From the NCBI GenBank assembly GCA_002221725.1, contig NJFT01000076.1:1-64000 (forward strand): a stretch of DNA of 64,000 nucleotides. Reading direction: 5' to 3'. The position numbers were made by a program, and so were the translations under genes. This stretch comes from Scedosporium boydii. Taxonomy: Eukaryota > Ascomycota > Sordariomycetes > Microascales > Microascaceae. Under the pieces are notes generated by a model. That model was not told where the DNA came from. It worked only from the letters and a program-made list of their open reading frames with translations, and searched no databases. Below are positions 35,473 to 44,946 of the stretch, one piece after another. The first letter of the stretch is position 1. Every line of letters starts with the position of its first letter.

Positions 35473-37923
35473 ATGGAAGAAGAGACATATCTAAAGTCGG
35501 CTTTGGACCTCAGCCAAGGGCAGCTCTGTGAGCATTGCTCTAGGCTGCCTTTTGATCAACTTTTCGGCCCAGAAGCCGACGGGATCAACGAATCTCTCAA
35601 GCCCCGAGCTCTCTCATCAGAGGAAATAGACCGAGATCTACTCAATCCACCATTGAGTAGCCCACGCAGCTTATACAAAGGCGGGCACTTATCTATTTTG
35701 CCCCTCAGTCATCTGACCGTCTTGAATAGCAATGTTTCAACGACCGCTTCATCCAACTCATGCCATCTATGCTCGTTCTTTGCCGACATTTATATCGCCG
35801 GGCCATATTGGGTCCCGAAAACTACGGCGTATCCCATGTGGCTTTCGTATGGCGTGATAGTATGCCGTTTCGCTCAACGCTCGACAACCCCAGTCTACGA
35901 CGGGCCACCGGGATATTCAACCGGCAAGAGACCTCTTTGTGCTCTCCTCCAATGGCCTCTGCGCTATAGTCCACCACCGGGTCACTGGTCCCATGAGGAC
36001 ACCTTGGCCTATACCGCGGACATTATCACCTGGTACAACGAAGGCACCATGCCGGTCGCCCTGGTCAACAAATTCGAGCACTTGGCATCGTGCGGCAACA
36101 TTTTTCATGCACGTCCGGCTCGAAGAGACCCGCTTCTATTACGACAGCCACAGTTACAGGAACGGCTCGAAAAGACGGAACTCGAATCTATACGACTCCG
36201 CATTCTAGGGAAGCGCGCGAACGGTGACGTGGAAACAGAGGAGCAGTCTACTCACCAAAAGGACCAACTTGCCATCGATTTCCGCGTCATTGACTGCGAA
36301 ACATCACTGGTTTGTCCACTCCCGAAGGGCCAGGACTATCTCACCCTTAGCTATGTTTGGGGGACCGGCCTCGATGCTGGTGGTCCGTACCGGACTTTGC
36401 CAAAGACGGCGCCGAAGGTAATCCGGGATGCGGCTTCGGTTACTCTCGGACTTGGGTTCCGGTATTTATGGGTAGATCGGTATTGCATCCCGCGAGACCA
36501 GCCTGAGGAAGCTCATATCCAGATTCGGCGCATGGACGTGATATATTCCCGCTCCTTTCTCACAATTGTCGCTGCCGGTGCCTCGAATCCAGGCGAAGGA
36601 CTAGTCCCTGATGCACCAGGCCTCCTATCTGGCAGCTGGTCGGATCGTTTGGAGCAAACCTTGAGCAAGCCTCTCTGCCATCTTGGGGGGTTTACCCTCC
36701 ACCTGTGCATTCCGCACTATTTCACCAACGGTGGCGTGGACGGGGACTTCCTTATATCATCTCAAATCTTCCGACACCTCGTCGAGCGTGGCGGTGGCCC
36801 TTCCCTGCGGCAAGGCGACTCCAGTATGCTGACAGTAGGAGCCGAGATTTATGGTTCGGCCTGGAACACGCGCGGGTGGACTTACCAGGAAGCGGTGCTC
36901 TCGAGGAGACTGCTCGTGTTTACGCCAGGTTTCATGTATTTTCAGAGCCACTGCGACCCCGCTCTATCCTGGGTCTTTCGGATGGGCCTTTCCGGTATCG
37001 TGTCCCCGCCCCTCTTCGCCAGAGTTTCTACAGCCATCCAGCAAACATACTGGTTCTATAGCGATGGCGCCAGCCTCCTGGAGGCCCATGTTCAGGCATA
37101 TTTTCGAAGGCGTCTCACCTTCTCAAGCGACGGCTACCATGCCTTTCGAGGGATTCAGTCAGCCCTCCACCGCAGTTGTTCTGACATGGTCATGTTCTAT
37201 GGCCTGCCGATTCTAGTATCCGCCCCAGATAGCAGCCCGCGGGGGTGCGCGTACGAGCTAGTCTCTGCGCTGCTTTGGGAGGTCTCGGCCGTTGTTGTGA
37301 GGCGGGAGGGATTCCCAAGCTGGACCTGGCTTGGATGGCAGCTCTTGCGCCATGGCGCGCCCGTCTACGGCCCAAACTGGATTGTAGAGTACGAAGGCGT
37401 ATTTTCCACGCTGCAGGGCATCGAGGTGGTCTTTGGGGATGAGAGTATCGTCCGCTGGACCGGGCCGTCGTGCGTTCCCGAAACGCGGCTTTGGGATGAC
37501 GAGTTTCCGTCCTTGCGGGTAGAAGGATGGACGTTCCAGCTCGACCCCCTCGCCGCTGCCGACGGCGAACTAGGTGGCGAGAGCAGGGCCTGGGAGAGGG
37601 ATTTGCGGGTGAACTTGTGGTATAGTGTCCGACGCCTAGGATCTCCGTTACATGATGGTTTAGAGAATAGGTTGGACGAGCTAGTGCTTCTTGTTCTCGC
37701 TCACGGCATTTACGTACCGTTGGTGCCCGGCAGTGAGGTCGATCCGATTTCCCAAATTGCTCGAGATGCGACCCATTCGGTGAACGTCATGGCGCTGTGG
37801 CCGGTTGGATTCCGCGGCGCATATGAGCGAGTTGGCCTAGTTCACGCGGAACTGCCCAAACCGTGGGATGACTTCGACAGGGAGGGCCATGGATGGACGG
37901 TCAGAAAGATTTTCATCCGGTAG
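35473..37923 (+). CDS. HET (heterokaryon incompatibility) domain protein
   Basis: Intronless, 816 residues from the ATG at 35473 (MEEETYLKSALDLSQ); an in-frame ATG at 35368 would add 35 residues. The N-terminus has Cys pairs typical of fungal HET proteins (LCEHCSRLPFDQLF; SCHLCSFFADIY). HET motifs: YLTLSYVWGTG (about residues 287-297), WVDRYCIPRDQ (about 333-343, CIP where CIN is common), then RRMDVIYSRSFLTIVAAGA, and RGWTYQEAVLSRRLL (about 466). HET domains trigger cell death in non-self recognition after fusion of unlike strains. The C-terminal half has no other recognised domain. It is tail-to-tail with the NOV-HET gene, 151 bp between stops. Confidence 0.9.
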   Translation: MEEETYLKSALDLSQGQLCEHCSRLPFDQLFGPEADGINESLKPRALSSEEIDRDLLNPPLSSPRSLYKGGHLSILPLSHLTVLNSNVSTTASSNSCHLCSFFADIYIAGPYWVPKTTAYPMWLSYGVIVCRFAQRSTTPVYDGPPGYSTGKRPLCALLQWPLRYSPPPGHWSHEDTLAYTADIITWYNEGTMPVALVNKFEHLASCGNIFHARPARRDPLLLRQPQLQERLEKTELESIRLRILGKRANGDVETEEQSTHQKDQLAIDFRVIDCETSLVCPLPKGQDYLTLSYVWGTGLDAGGPYRTLPKTAPKVIRDAASVTLGLGFRYLWVDRYCIPRDQPEEAHIQIRRMDVIYSRSFLTIVAAGASNPGEGLVPDAPGLLSGSWSDRLEQTLSKPLCHLGGFTLHLCIPHYFTNGGVDGDFLISSQIFRHLVERGGGPSLRQGDSSMLTVGAEIYGSAWNTRGWTYQEAVLSRRLLVFTPGFMYFQSHCDPALSWVFRMGLSGIVSPPLFARVSTAIQQTYWFYSDGASLLEAHVQAYFRRRLTFSSDGYHAFRGIQSALHRSCSDMVMFYGLPILVSAPDSSPRGCAYELVSALLWEVSAVVVRREGFPSWTWLGWQLLRHGAPVYGPNWIVEYEGVFSTLQGIEVVFGDESIVRWTGPSCVPETRLWDDEFPSLRVEGWTFQLDPLAAADGELGGESRAWERDLRVNLWYSVRRLGSPLHDGLENRLDELVLLVLAHGIYVPLVPGSEVDPISQIARDATHSVNVMALWPVGFRGAYERVGLVHAELPKPWDDFDREGHGWTVRKIFIR

Positions 37924-38074: not shown

Positions 38075-41000
38075 TCAAACCAAATAAATGACCCCATCCT
38101 TAGCATCCCCTTTCGCCAACGCCTCCCCAAACATGATTCCATGAACATAGCACTCGCCCACCAGCTTCTTCCATTCCTTCTTCCCCTTCCCGTCGTTGTG
38201 TCTCACCAAGAACGGCACGGCCGCACCGTTGGCGATAAACACTTCATCGCCGATCTTCGCGTCCCCAGGAACCAATCCGGCATAGCCTTTCTCCGTCCTA
38301 CAAAAGCTGGCGACGGAAAGCCTCTTCGAGAAGGCCGCCGCCGTGTGCCAGTATTTCCAGACGCTATCCCTCAGATTCTGCGGCTGCTTGAGAAAATCGA
38401 TGAGGTGCTGGATGGATTTGATGTCCAGCCTGGCACCGGTAGGGTCGAACGTGTCCTCGTCCCGTTCGCCCTGTACCCAGTCGCCGCTTGGATCTTCACT
38501 TGGCAGCTTTTCATAGCTCTGGTGATTCTTGAGCACCTGAAAGGTCGTCATCGCACCGGCAAGAGGGTCGAGATGCGGTCGGCTTGCCTGGCCTATCGGT
38601 AGGGAGAACTTGAGCTTATCAAGGGATTCTCCGGTGGGATAGGAGCCGAGCTTGTCGATTTCCTTGCGGAGGTAGTTGACGTACGCAACCACGTCGTGCT
38701 CCTCCAACGTGACGTGGCCAACCTTGGCAATACGGTCGACAATGGACCCGCGCACAATCAAGAGCCTATCGTTCTTCGAAGACACTTCAGCCGACAACGT
38801 CGAAACTCCTGAGGCAGAAAAGGACCCTTTGGTGCTGTACCACGTCGATATCGTCGTTGGAGCCTCGCCTCGGATCCAGTCCGGGATCCAGGAGCAAAAT
38901 TTAAAAGATTTGGCAGTGCCGGCCCGGTAGAGAAGATCACGCGCCTCACCGCGCTGAATGAAGGCGTTTGCGTAGCGCCGCACGACCTTCTCCCACGAGG
39001 ACGAGTAGTCTGGCTCGAACTCGGGGTCCTGCCCGTCCGAGGCGAGGAGTAGTAGGGCGAAGATTTTATCGCGTTCGCGGGTCGCGCTGGTGTACGCGAA
39101 GAGCTCGAGAAGCTGGAGGAGATTGAATCTCCTGTCGACCGCCTGGCCTTGTTGGGTTTGGTGTCTGTAGATCTCGCGGGTGATGCCTAGCGTGTATGCC
39201 GCGATGGGTATTTGCTTATTGCGGGACTGCACCTGGGCTTCTAGATGGCGCGTGTTTTCCTCCGTGCAGATTTTGATGGCTTCGAAGATATCCTCCCAGT
39301 CGAACGACCACCGACCGCAGTGGACGATGATCTTGGAAGCAAAGACTACTTCCTGGAGGATCCACACGCGGCTGAAGAAACCGCGCTCGAGAAGACAGTC
39401 GATCTTCTCCCACACATCGTCGTCCTTGTGTGGACACCGCTGACCTTCCCACGAGGGCGGCACCTTGGGCAACGTTTTCGGCCACGTCTTAGGGTTTACA
39501 GAGAGTGTTCTGACCTGCAGTAAGGTCGTGATGGCTTGGTCGCTGCCATCTGCTTCTTCGCCGAGCCAGGCAGAAACACTCTCAGCAGTTTGGAAGATTT
39601 CTCCCATCAGACGGAGTTGGAGGACCTTTTCGTAGTCGTTTTCTTGGTCGATGCATATTGCGTCCGCCCACACGACAAGTGTTTCTTTTGTATCTCGGAG
39701 TTCGCGGAGAGCATTGTATAGTGACGCGGTCAAAGCAATTAGGCCGTCCGATGTCTTGATGTGATAGGGCTTCAGGCTAGATCCCCATTCGTAAGAGAGG
39801 GCATGGTACCTTCCTGCCAGATCTATCGAGGTGTGCTTCATCTGACCCCGCAAAACCTCGTCCTCCTTTCCAGGAGCGATCTCCACCAGCCTGATGTCAC
39901 GGAACCCTTTCAGGGGCTTGTATTGGTAATACGCCCTGGACGACCAGGTACAATCACTGACGCCCAGGCGGCGGCGGCGCCTCCACCAATGCTGACTTCC
40001 GTTCACGAGGGGCTGTGACGAGGCACGATAGTCTTTAATCTTGATCCCCATTGAGGTATCGACAAAGCGCAGTTGCTGGCAGGTAACGTCTGTCGTGACA
40101 ACATGTCCCTTGGCCATCAACCGCCCTAGGTCAACAAAAAGGGTAATTTCTGGATCCTCCTTCGCATTTGAGATCCGAGCAAGGATAAAGACTTCATTAG
40201 GACAGGACGAGTCCTTTCGCCGTACTGCCAATATATGAGCCTAGCAGGGTGGGTGATGTGTGTCAACTTAGAGTGCTATAGAGTTCGAAACAACCACTGG
40301 ACGTACCTTCATCAAGATCTCACTCGCCAGGAAGAATTGTGAATCATCCAGGGCTCCCTCGCTTGTACTGACCTCGACGTGAAATGTAATCCCACTTTTC
40401 CACGTTGACGCTTTCGCATACCCAGCTGAACGAAGAAACTCTAGCAAACGGCCACTTTTGTCGCTTATGGTAAAAGTCGTCGGACAACCTACAGTCTTAT
40501 GACTGTACGTATACGGTGGGTGACCTGCCCTGGAGCGCAAGATACTTGTCCAGTTATTCGTCGGCGAGTATGACTCTCCCATATTCATTTCGAGAAATCT
40601 CGAAAACTATAGAACCACACGTTAACATCGTAGACCACGTGTGCATGTAAATGGAAGTTTTACCATGAGTTCCCCAAGAAACGCCACCTCCGGGCTCGTC
40701 GGATTCATGGCTGTTTCGAGGATATATACAGTCTCGTCTCCAAGCTGGGAGGGTACATATATGGCCGGGAATACGGGATTAACGCTGGCGTGCCGATTCT
40801 CGAGCATCTTGCGGTAGCCCCCGCCGGTGTAGAAGGACCATTTAGCCCTTCGGTCTGGGGGCCCACAGGCCTTGTTCCTCATTTTCCTGACGGCTTCTCG
40901 GGGGAGGAAGACTGCAGCGTTGACCCGTTCAGCTCGACAGGCAGACGATAGCAGCGGGTTGGTATCCACGCCCCTGGAACCCCATTCCTTCTCCATTGTG

Positions 41001-44000
41001 TTCTGGACAGAAGCAGCGGACTCGATGTCGCGGATGAAGTCGCCCAACGTGTTTGAGCCGTCTCTATTCATATCCCCTGTTAGTTGCGGCCAATTTCCGA
41101 CTTCTGTGTGCTTCAAGGTCTTGGAATAGTCGAGCGGCACTTTCCAAGCTTCATCACCACCCGCTGTATCGTCGTTGCTAGACTCAACTGTGATCCCTCG
41201 TCGTTCCAGCGTTTCCGTGAGAGCTTTAATGTCAGGGTTCATGAGGATCTGCTGCACAATGGCACTCGTTTCTGAGCCTTGCATGCCACAGAACTTTTGC
41301 AATTCCTCGACGAGTTCGAGAGAAGGGCACGGTGACTCGACGTCTTCCTTTGTTAAGTAGATTGACAAGCGGGAACTTTCCTGTGTCAGTTTGACTCTTC
41401 CTGAATCGACAGCACCAGTGATAGTCTGTCCATGAGCCCCCTTTACCGTCCACTTGATGACGACCCGATCTGCTTCATATACGTCGACGGATCGGAGCAA
41501 AGAGCAGAGAGCCGACCTGCCAACTCCATCGCTCTTAGGCGCCAAGCTGTGTGAATGATGAACAAAAAGTTAGCGAATCACGGCCATTATATTAGCGCCT
41601 TCTAGAAGCTCGGACGGTGAGATAAAACATACCTAGCCAAGAGGTAGGCCTTTGACCTCAGGTTATTCGTGTACTTCGGGTGCAAAGAAGAGCTTCCGTC
41701 AACCAATGCTAGGCCAGATGCCACGGACGACAAAAGCCGATAATTCATAGTGAAGTGAGCGAAAAGATCAGACATGAGGCCTATATCCTTTGGGTCGAAG
41801 GCCAGAAGGCTGACTCGTCCCCCAAAACATTTCCTCAAGTGCGGCCGATCGGCAATTAGCCAAAAGTCCTTGGAACCGGCCGACTGCAGACTATCAAAGC
41901 TATTTATGTCACCTCTGGTGTCCACGGGGAAGATTCTGGCCGCGCTGAGCCTCTTCACGTCTGAAAGGGCACTTCCGGTCAGTCCGCTACGGATGGATGC
42001 AGACAGTGCGATGAGAATGCTTGCAATGTAGGATAAGCTATCCCCAGCCGAGATCATGGACGCTTCAGCTACCAATGTGTCGACACTGCCCTCCTTGAGA
42101 TTGAGCGTTCGTCGGAAGAAGTGGTGGAGGCCGCCATAGTGTGGTTGGAGGCGTGCGATCTTACGGAGACATGGATGCCCGTCCCAGACACACGCTCCAA
42201 TGGGGACCCACGTTCCACCACCTTGGGTAGAGTAGAAAGGTAAAAATATCAAGGGTTCCTTGACGAAACTTGGTCTACTTACAGTTAGCCCTTTCTCAGT
42301 AACAAGTACTTTCGAGTTGCAGAAAACCGAGGGAAGAGAATATTGACTGACAATATCATGGAGCCGTCGGATGCCGCGCGAGCTTGAAGCTCGGCATAGA
42401 TGCTACGGACCTTGGCGAAATCGACATCTTGCCGGCGCCGCATATTGCGTAGTTGCCGCAATAATACACCGGTTCCTAGCGTAACCGTGACGCCAAAGAT
42501 CCGTAAGAACTTCCAGTCTTCTGAATCCGGATCTTCTAAGTCGAGGAGAACAAGTTCACGGCCGTAGGAATCAATAATCTCGCGCAGGGGCAGAGTCGTG
42601 TCCTTCAACGACGCATAGCCCCCTCCTTGACACCGCACTTTCATTCGGCCCAACTCTTCGACCACGCTTGCGATTGAGGTCATCCACTCGCTGCTCGTGT
42701 TTCGCGCCATTTTCTTGTCGACCCATTGCTCGTAGTTCCTCCATTCATGGCGCAGGAGTTCGAGGATCTGGGTGGAAGGCGCTGTGCGGATGAGCAGTCG
42801 AAACTCATCGCTCAGGCGGAAGCTCCGGCTGCCCACCTTTGCGATACGGGGGCATGTGTTCAGGTGGAAGGTTGAGGTGATCCAGGAGATGAAGGCTTGC
42901 CGATCCGCCGAGCCCCAAGGGAATTCCGAGAAGTAGTCACCATGCAGGAAACGAATGCGGCCCTTCAGTGGCGCCCACTTTGAGGCGCTGAAGAGGTCTT
43001 CAGACTTTACATACAGTTCCGGACCCGTGGAAGAGGTGCCGTTGTCGGCAACGAAATATATGTTCCGGCGACTTGGATCGCTCCAGTTATGACGATAGAG
43101 ATAGGTTGCGTGTGCCACTAGATCCTTCAAGTGTAGATCCTGAGGGCGGAACGTCTCGCTCGAGTGAGCCTTCACAATCTCCTCGCAGACCTGCCTCACG
43201 GTGAGACGGCTTGCACCAAGGTGGATAAGAAGCTGGCGGCGATCAGAGTCCTTAAAAGCGTCGGGGTGTACTTCCAGAACGCCAACACCGGGTGGGATAA
43301 TGATGCCGGCATCTCTGCTCGGTAGGACCAGGGAGCCGGTCTTTGCGGACACCCATCGGCCATCTCTGAGTGGCACGATATTCATTCTCGAGATAGCTGC
43401 ACTGTGAGACTCACCAGTCGCATCTCCGAGGATGAGAGAAGTCAGAGCTTGAGATAAAGCGGAGTGCCATGGTCCTGGTTTCTGCCGGAAAGTCATGGTA
43501 TGCTTCTCGAGAAGAACTCCGAGGTGCTCAATGAACTCCTTGCTAGACAGCCGTCGCACGCCAAGGCGACTGAGAAGTGGCCAGTCCTCTTCGGAATACC
43601 CTGGCGAGAGGTACTTGTTATCCATGGTCTCGCAAGCCGTGAAAGGCACGCCATCCCAGCTTAGAAACTGAGGAGGGACTTTAACCAACTCTCTAGGCTG
43701 ATGCCATTGACCTGAAACGGCTTGGAGAATGGGACGAGTGGACAGGAGCGTAGCAATCTCGTCCTCGAGTGTGGCAAAGAAGTCCCTCAATTGAGGGCGC
43801 ACTTGAAAGAACCGAGGCCAAGTGTACCGCATCGGCCCCCTGTTGAACTGGTTAACGGCTTCTAGAATGGCATTGGGGAGCGCGCCTCGGAGATACCGGT
43901 TCCAGCGGCAGTAATCATCGATGTCTTCTCGACTGGCAATAAGAAGAAAGTCCCCCTGAATCAGAAACTAGAGCGCAGTACATTAGTAGCGATTCGAAAA

Positions 44001-44946
44001 GAGCCCAAGCCATGGAGCCACCGTCTCATACCTTGAATCCATAATCTCGAATAGGCAAGAAAGCATGCACATACTGGGGCGTGAGTACCGGTGTCTCGCT
44101 CTCCGAGACAGGGAACCCAAGCATGAGTTCCGACTCGGTCACGCCAGGCCGTTTGTCGTCTTGGGGGAGGTGGGTTGCCGTGTACCGAAAGATGATGTAT
44201 CTCATGCTCGAATTTCCCAACTGCAGTGTGATCCGACTTCCCCCAGCTTCGTCGTTCTTCGCAATGGTCGTCGACCAATTGGTGCCATCCTTGCTGCGGA
44301 CGGCTAAGTCTAGCCTCTTAAGCTGGCGCAGAAAGATCAAGAGGCGAGCATCGAAAGACTTGATCTCCGTAATTAGTTCGCTCACATCATAATCCTGCGA
44401 CAGCTGAAGGTAGATGGTGGTGGTAGTGTTTCCTCTCAGAGACTGCTGCGCGGTGGCAGGAAGATCTGCCCAAATGGGAGCGATCATTCCCAAGTCCCTC
44501 GATTTCTCGAACTTAAATGAATAATGGCCCGACTTAATCCACACGACGTCGGACACCTTGAAAACGGATTTGAAACCAATTCCCTTCTCCCCGATATACC
44601 TCGTCGCCTTATCCACGCCTGACTTTGTGCTCCGCCCAACCCTGCAGATAGCCTCGACATTATTCCTGGAGAAGCCGCGCTCGTTACAAGAGATTAGCAG
44701 ATGCCGGTTCTCGTACCGCAAAGCTAGACTGGGCGAGCTTCCGGGCGGGTAGAAGTTATCGTCCGCATTCTGAACTAGTTCCAGGAGAAAGTGCGTCGAC
44801 TTTTGGTACAGCTGCTCCGAGAGGATTTTCAGCGCAGACTCGAGGTCGGATGTGTTGTTTGCTGGGCCGTCCAGGCCTTTTTCGCGCCGAATCGTTTTGA
44901 TATGTTGCTTCGCATCCTCCACGCTCTGCGGATATTGATCATCCAT
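38075..44946 (-). CDS. Sacsin/NO VEIN-type GHKL ATPase fused to NOV_C and HET domains
   Basis: Six exons, 44946-44032, 43967-42352, 42268-41633, 41546-40664, 40606-40307 and 40240-38075, with introns of 57-86 nt, give one frame of about 2,171 residues. The N-terminus is a GHKL ATPase: FLLELVQNADDNFY (N box, 53-66), CNERGFSRNNVEAICRVG (87-104) and YIGEKGIGFKSVFKVSD (117-133). Exons 2-4 match the middle of fungal NOV-like proteins (FLIQGDFLLIASREDIDDYC, WVPIGACVWDG). A NOV_C/DUF3883 domain spans exons 5-6 (SGITFHVEVSTSEG; EVFILARISNAKEDPEITLF). After a linker with an Arg run comes a HET domain: YHALSYEWGSS (about 1595), WADAICIDQEND (about 1641) and FFSRVWILQEVVF (about 1738). No stop or intergenic signal separates the parts. 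The second intron has a weak GTCAGT donor. Confidence 0.85.

Follow-up and report, generated by a model that had tools for sequence, protein, structure and literature searches.

Does the ascomycete Scedosporium boydii encode a protein that combines detection and cell death in one chain, and to which known proteins are its two halves related? The question is raised by a gene on the minus strand (44946-38075) of a 64,000-nucleotide stretch of contig NJFT01000076.1 (assembly GCA_002221725.1, positions 1 to 64,000), referred to below as the window. An earlier note on this DNA, made from the letters alone, had described the gene as a fusion of a NO VEIN/sacsin-type GHKL ATPase, a NOV_C domain and a HET death domain. 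Our analysis confirmed that a GHKL ATPase, a long middle region, a NOV_C-type domain and a HET domain are encoded in one frame, and detection and death in a single chain, unlike the NACHT/WD40 type, is the best-supported reading of the sequence. What is new beyond that note, as judged from sequence comparison, is the relation of the whole pre-HET part to TmtA-type proteins of prokaryotes and the stepwise loss of a nuclease-like motif from the NOV_C-type domain.

Structure of the fusion gene

Six exons, all on the minus strand like every feature of this gene, form a single open frame of 2,171, 2,173 or 2,174 codons depending on the acceptor of intron 2. The in-phase join of six exons proposed in the earlier note was thus borne out, its 2,171 residues being the shortest of the three versions; the 2,173-residue version equals P0001, the closest database relative, in the number of residues counted by eye between flanking conserved blocks. 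The introns, of 57-86 bases, are ordinary for fungi. Exon 1 (44946-44032) carries the start codon and the sacsin/HSP90-type GHKL ATPase, recognised by Pfam SACS and PADLOC TmtA, and is followed by intron 1 (44031-43968; 64 nt, GTATGA...CTAG). The middle region is encoded by exon 2 (43967-42352), over which prokaryotic TmtA-type proteins are colinear with the profile of the fused family, exon 3 (42274-41633) and exon 4 (41546-40664). The acceptor of intron 2 (42351-42275) is uncertain, the last intron base being 42278, 42275 or 42269, and the alternatives place the start of exon 3 at 42277 or 42268; intron 3 (41632-41547) has 86 nt and intron 4 (40663-40607) has 57 nt. Exon 5 (40606-40307) encodes the first half of the NOV_C-type domain, as recognised by our own NOV_C model and profile comparison. 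Exon 6 (40240-38075), one 721-codon open frame, contains the second half of that domain (40061-40240, end approximate; placed by alignment and the same model), a linker, the HET domain, a C-terminal tail and the stop codon. As the second half of NOV_C and the HET domain share this uninterrupted exon, no splice is needed for their fusion. A Pfam scan of the window protein at E≤1 returned SACS and HET only, both over cut-off, and the structure model of exon 6 had a mean predicted local distance difference test score (pLDDT) of 82.8.

The join across intron 5 (40306-40241), which lies in phase 0 within the NOV_C-type domain, had been read in the earlier note as continuing that domain (40307/40240), and the same genome bears this out. 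It contains three unfused family members (C281, C417 and C358; loci L024, L025 and L026, respectively), and each of them carries, at the corresponding position, an intron in phase 0 (L024 3494-3440, L025 4887-4824, L026 3432-3369). A second acceptor is also open at this intron in L026, and in the window a second in-frame splice (40323-40225, phase 1) reaches the same HET frame, so that either choice keeps exon 6 in frame. The homologous introns suggest that intron 5 is ancestral and that a HET protein was joined to the ancestral last exon. The HET halves of the window protein and P0001 gave no match in the 9.8-9.9 kb read at each of these loci.

Distribution of the fused family

A search with the whole protein gave 33 proteins, headed by one from Rostrohypoxylon terebratum (Sordariomycetes; 45% identity, 100% of the query). 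These were merged with the best 120 of 2,387 matches to a mainly fused profile and the best 120 of 1,015 matches to an unfused profile into 206 proteins, or 207 with the window protein, which represent best-scoring matches and no census. Ten were left out (eight animal or plant proteins, one bacterial protein and one ankyrin-repeat HET protein), as were P0009, P0132, P0163, P0166 and P0198, which had no NOV_C match. The remaining 192 proteins comprise 105 with HET (104 from the database and the window protein) and 87 without. At least 104 database proteins therefore carry both halves in the same domain order, and the possibility that the halves are always separate genes in homologues, which the earlier note had named as speaking against a fusion, did not hold.

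The fused proteins occur in at least six classes of Pezizomycotina (Sordariomycetes, Dothideomycetes, Eurotiomycetes, Leotiomycetes, Orbiliomycetes and Geoglossomycetes); the basidiomycete members among the matches listed (e.g. Lactarius) are unfused. Some species have several fused copies, at least four being listed for Xylariaceae sp. AK1471. The linker between NOV_C and HET measures 27-127 residues (5th-95th percentile of the 105 proteins).

Some proteins depart from this layout. P0008 and P0010-P0012 (2,569-2,770 residues; Fonsecaea, Clonostachys) are fusions several hundred residues longer than that of the window. P0132 of Madurella fahalii is 42% identical to P0001 over 53% of P0001, ends in another type of tail (PF28131), lacks a NOV_C match, and is either a gene-model fusion or a case of another effector. 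We considered P0132, with its tail, and P0015, with a GH16 domain, as bearers of alternative effectors and rejected both, since they look like gene-model fusions.

Common history of the two halves

A FastTree phylogeny (192 rows, 1,189 columns), built from the ATPase together with the middle region, contained one fused clade of 80 proteins (78 fused; P0088 and P0180 unfused) and another of 27, and unfused groups branched near the fused clades in a knot that the tree did not resolve. A mixture-model tree of 64 rows, hand-selected from the 192, left this knot in place; in it P0039, a 4,802-residue gene model, had an absurd branch length of 9.27. The number of changes in fusion state was four (three of them forced) on the larger tree and two on the smaller, and the sequences are compatible with one or two fusions.

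The tree of the HET domains largely repeats the groups of the ATPase tree. With the 105 fused proteins, the two trees had 69 of 102 splits in common, as compared with 0.15 on average and never more than 1 in 200 shuffles, and pairwise distances were correlated (Spearman 0.69; none of 2,000 permutations as high). Both results indicate that the halves have long travelled as one gene.

The pre-HET part and TmtA-type proteins

Pfam SACS (PF25794) matched the window protein with 45.3 bits against a cut-off of 32.8. The N box ELVQNADDN (44755-44781), the G1 box NERGF (44671-44685) and the G2 box GEKGIGFK (44569-44592), judged intact in the earlier note, are indeed all present in the sequence and align with those of 23 relatives; ATP binding and hydrolysis are predicted from the domain and these boxes. 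The best PDB profile matches of the ATPase were HSP90-type chaperones and sacsin, and in four of four relatives scanned against NCBIfam nothing but the general sacsin ATP-binding domain exceeded the cut-off. The label "sacsin-like" given earlier is thus correct as to SACS and is too narrow, as the stretch from ATPase to NOV_C is a full-length relative of TmtA-type proteins.

The PADLOC TmtA model was matched by window exon 1 alone (E 3.2e-63), by the fused P0001 (2.1e-81) and by the unfused P0018 (3.9e-76) and P0020 (3.2e-83). The PADLOC table, whose library covers known as well as candidate defence proteins, gives TmtA by name only; we take it to be the Tiamat anti-phage system. When prokaryotic genomes were scanned with the unfused profile, 90 relatives emerged, of which 80 were kept and the frames of 66 were read. 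Forty-five frames had 1,432-1,686 residues; the others were shorter, some of them ended by a contig edge. Six of the eleven with a match to our NOV_C models, three bacterial and three archaeal, were scanned further: all six had a C-terminal NOV_C over the Pfam cut-off and matched TmtA at E 5e-229 or better, four had SACS over cut-off, and in two (from Calothrix and a Kapaibacterium) the TmtA profile was matched end to end. In profile-profile comparison, columns 1-1515 of the fused fungal profile aligned with 1-1547 of the prokaryotic one (E 5e-117; 17 fused fungal and 16 prokaryotic proteins, hand-selected), and the canonical unfused fungal profile aligned with the prokaryotic one at E 4e-141. 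The pre-HET part therefore appears to correspond to a complete TmtA/NO VEIN-type protein.

In six prokaryotic relatives (L086, L052, L065, L084, L102 and L107) the C-terminal domain is a diverged one of the D...E-x-K type (e.g. FDLQ...YIEVKG), and some of them carry further residues after it. Effector ends may thus vary in prokaryotes too.

Decay of the nuclease-like motif

The NOV_C domain of the earlier note was upheld by homology, the NOV_C-type profiles of fused and unfused fungal proteins matching at E 4.2e-55, and not by the Pfam model (PF13020), which gave no match to the window protein at E≤1. By its homology to the unfused fungal NOV_C the domain is present in the window, yet it is degenerate in sequence. 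The Pfam model found nothing in the whole genome either, in a scan that was insensitive because it scored each exon by itself and the domain has diverged in fungi; the unfused relative P0018 matched it at E 0.0017, under cut-off. Against a fish and plant profile, the unfused fungal NOV_C reached E 2.4e-9 and the fused one E 0.0037 (probability 8.9%).

DUF3883 is, we presume, the former name of NOV_C. It is called a novel restriction endonuclease (REase) domain in a passage of PMC3710099. A PD-(D/E)xK-like pattern (e.g. YDI...YIEVKS) could be aligned in prokaryotic, fish, plant and canonical fungal NOV_C, and the window protein reads TTFTI...FHVEVST in its place. The first acidic position has T instead of D (40475-40477), and the codons of E-x-K encode E-V-S (40367-40375), so that the lysine is lost. 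This loss of the D and E-x-K residues, read from the alignment, is a feature that the first reading of the gene had not seen.

It is shared by the fused family. Within the 192-protein set, E-x-K (with D allowed for E) was present in 1 of 104 fused proteins versus 75 of 87 unfused ones, the first acid in none of 102 versus 51 of 87, and all three residues in none of the 105 fused proteins. In the 52 canonical unfused fungal proteins the first acid was kept in 49, E-x-K in 50 and the complete motif in 48. The sole fused protein with E-x-K is P0126, whose match is truncated and whose close sister P0180 reads EVC; its E-x-K may therefore be a gene-model error. Among 153 NOV_C columns, the drop between the unfused and fused proteins is largest for the lysine (0.89 to 0.07), followed by a tyrosine outside the motif and, in third place, by the acid, the glutamate ranking 27th. 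Thirteen different residues occupy the lysine position in fused proteins, and other positions are kept (W 0.99, T 0.99, S 0.97, P 0.99, F 0.91). The pattern looks like a loss of active-site-like residues from a scaffold much of which was retained. Placed on the tree, the subgroup counts indicate that the complete motif disappeared earlier than the fusion or independently of it, and that E-x-K went together with the fusion. In the aligned proteins, the nuclease-like motif is one that fades stepwise, from canonical unfused proteins through unfused sisters (counted below) to HET-fused proteins.

The three unfused S. boydii proteins, each nearest to a different unfused relative, have E-x-K or D-x-K in three of three cases and the first acid in two. 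A fourth locus, L027 (C86:129.0-138.9 kb), is a fragmentary remnant with a stop within its ATPase match, and its NOV_C piece reads EVK.

The HET domain and its tail

The HET domain (39350-39808) matches Pfam PF06985 over the full profile (1-146 of 146) with 91.2 bits against a cut-off of 22.5, and the three blocks reported earlier, SYEWG, WADAICIDQ and RVWILQE, are all present. In the third (39350-39370), which has W-x-x-x-E spacing, R, W, Q and E are invariant in our alignment A4 of the window protein and 36 relatives (37 rows). Modelled alone, the HET part had a mean pLDDT of 91.0. The induction of cell death by this HET domain is predicted from domain identity; passages of PMC10197012, PMC12881547, PMC9153377 and PMC9815663 report the death activity of HET domains, their likeness to TIR and a conserved functional glutamate. 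Foldseek comparison gave no PDB match at E≤0.001 for exon 6 or the HET part. The HET part had no match among viral structure models, and a sequence search of exon 6 against solved structures gave nothing under E 0.33.

The C-terminal tail (38087-38320) is common to other HET proteins, with 36-47% identity to the tails of free HET proteins of the same genome. PF26639, whose name we take to be "het-6 barrel", is precomputed for the tails of many relatives, and the window tail presumably resembles that of het-6. In a tree with 21 free HETs of the genome, the fused HETs fell on one side of a branch with a support of only 56. This tree used 21 of 37 HET loci, the others being repeats of the same HET or too-short model matches.

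A candidate single-chain immune receptor

Based on these sequence comparisons, we lean towards the view that the fused protein is a non-NLR (NOD-like receptor), single-chain immune receptor of Pezizomycotina, in which a TIR-like HET domain took over from an already weakened nuclease-like effector. More tentatively, such proteins could constitute a second class of fungal intracellular receptors besides the NLRs, namely relatives of TmtA in which a TIR-like HET stands in for a disarmed ancestral nuclease-like effector. The ATPase would work as a clamp or dimerisation switch that is driven by ATP and controlled by a ligand sensed by the middle region, and in the ancestor this switch would have fired a nuclease-like NOV_C effector. 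That effector may have weakened, its first acid having gone earlier than the fusion or independently of it, after which HET would have taken over and NOV_C stayed as a relay. The HET domain would act like a TIR domain, probably on nicotinamide adenine dinucleotide (NAD+) or a related nucleotide by means of the RVWILQE glutamate, and would kill or arrest the hyphal compartment upon a parasite, virus or damage rather than primarily upon a non-self mate. The exchange of a nuclease-like effector for HET would be what underlies the pattern. Protection against viruses by the fused protein is a surmise from its relation to TmtA.

Several observations weigh against this interpretation. The role of NOV_C as a nuclease is itself a prediction, and only 11 of the 66 prokaryotic frames matched our two NOV_C models at E<0.001. 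In the 35 unfused sisters nearer to the fused proteins the acid is kept in 2, E-x-K in 25 and all three residues in none, so that disarming did not need HET, and E-x-K is missing from 12 of the 87 unfused proteins, including P0088 and P0180 within a fused clade. Of the fused proteins, 68 of 104 keep the E or D of E-x-K, the lysine being kept in 7. As fusion and motif loss fall on one or two branches, their link is not independently replicated, and a sign test on independent pairs, which was without power, gave p = 1. By strict patterns, all three GHKL boxes occur in 84 of 105 fused versus 81 of 87 unfused proteins, and HET blocks 1, 2 and 3 in 89, 87 and 83 of 105; some copies may therefore be non-functional or badly modelled. 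Finally, the similarity of HET to the TIR fold was weak here.

A variant of this interpretation holds that NOV_C is changed and not dead, i.e. that it still binds nucleic acid or cuts by means of other residues and that the fused protein is armed with two effectors. Some continued role would suit the conservation of W, T, S, P and F, as well as that of the E-x-K acid, which 68 of 104 fused proteins retain. A lysine position filled by 13 different residues and a first acid that is never D or E in 102 fused proteins argue against catalysis, and we think this variant unlikely, if well worth keeping in mind.

The protein might also serve allorecognition, its ATPase or middle region recognising a polymorphic partner in the way HET-C is recognised by HET-E. 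Of six incompatibility systems studied in Neurospora crassa, four involve HET domains, as do half of six in Cryphonectria parasitica, according to the text matched in PMC10197012, and the many HET matches of the present genome, at least 152, together with the several fused copies of some species, would fit such a role. The sensor half is, however, an old and widespread module related to TmtA (whose anti-phage role we presume), and the Pfam scan showed no WD40-like repeat domain; we consider this explanation rather improbable.

Still less probable seems a chaperone in which the sacsin/HSP90-like GHKL/NOV half folds or restrains HET and responds to proteotoxic stress. The SACS match and the HSP90-type and sacsin structures among the best PDB matches agree with it, and sacsin-DEATH fusions were suggested, in a passage of PMC3710099, to act in a suicidal response to unfolded proteins. 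In the Pfam scan at E≤1, however, neither a J domain nor a further HSP90 domain was found, and the full-length match is to TmtA-type proteins. An artefact, i.e. a gene model or assembly merging two adjoining genes, has next to no probability and, like a fusion with a neighbouring gene, is rejected on account of the single exon shared by the NOV_C end and HET, the conserved intron 5, the fused database proteins, the lengths of their linkers and the co-divergence of the halves, even though fungal gene models are sometimes fused, as P0015 and P0132 appear to be.

Relation to known systems

TmtA and the window protein share an N-terminal GHKL/SACS ATPase, a colinear layout of about 1,500 residues and a NOV_C end, as seen in the six scanned proteins. 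TmtA differs in being bacterial or archaeal, in having the motif intact in those six and in lacking HET, whereas the window protein is eukaryotic, has lost the motif and has gained HET and a tail. A SACS ATPase is likewise combined with a NOV_C-type C-terminus in the NO VEIN-type proteins known from plants, fish and, in unfused form, fungi; unlike the window protein, these have no HET after NOV_C, and D...E-x-K is intact in 48 of the 52 canonical fungal ones.

The HET-NACHT-WD40 NLRs HET-E, HET-D and HET-R resemble the window protein in joining a sensor NTPase and HET in one chain. In the window protein, however, the NTPase is of the GHKL and not of the NACHT type (no NACHT or NB-ARC match in the Pfam scan at E≤1), HET is C-terminal instead of N-terminal, and no WD40, TPR or ANK repeats were found in that scan. 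The non-NLR genes tol, pin-c and het-6 share the HET domain, but lack an ATPase sensor; HET is often their sole identifiable domain, as stated in the matched text of PMC10197012. Sacsin-HEPN and sponge sacsin-DEATH proteins (described in a passage of PMC3710099) also couple an ATPase of the sacsin type to a death or toxin-like module; they differ from the window protein in the effector domain and belong to animal and slime-mould lineages. No description of a HET fusion to NO VEIN, sacsin or GHKL was found in the open-licence PMC literature, in a search that did not cover Tiamat, and sacsin, GHKL and HATPase are absent from the matched text of PMC10197012, PMC12881547, PMC4986451 and PMC9815663.

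If the more tentative reading of a second receptor class is true, an effector was swapped on a prokaryotic-type defence sensor, and the products are spread over at least six classes of Pezizomycotina, with several copies per genome in some species. Some mould genomes have more than 100 HET genes, and here a sensor is physically attached to the HET domain. As this sensor has a prokaryotic counterpart with a presumed anti-phage role, specific functional tests become possible, and the questions opened include the control of HET by the ATPase switch, the role of the HET glutamate and triggering by mycoviruses. The family also supplies a natural series of proteins, whose ends range from an intact nuclease-like domain to HET, and unfused controls are available within the S. 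boydii genome itself.

The neighbouring HET gene

A separate HET gene of 816 residues (35473-37920, plus strand; HET 84.6 bits) adjoins the fusion gene and was also left out of the HET-origin tree. We considered it as the source from which the fused HET was copied and found no support for this, the best common stretch being 79 columns with 32% identity (E 0.001). The two genes are arranged tail to tail, with stop codons about 150 bases apart, in a genome that is strongly HET-rich (the matches, counted exon by exon, being spread over 42.9 Mb).

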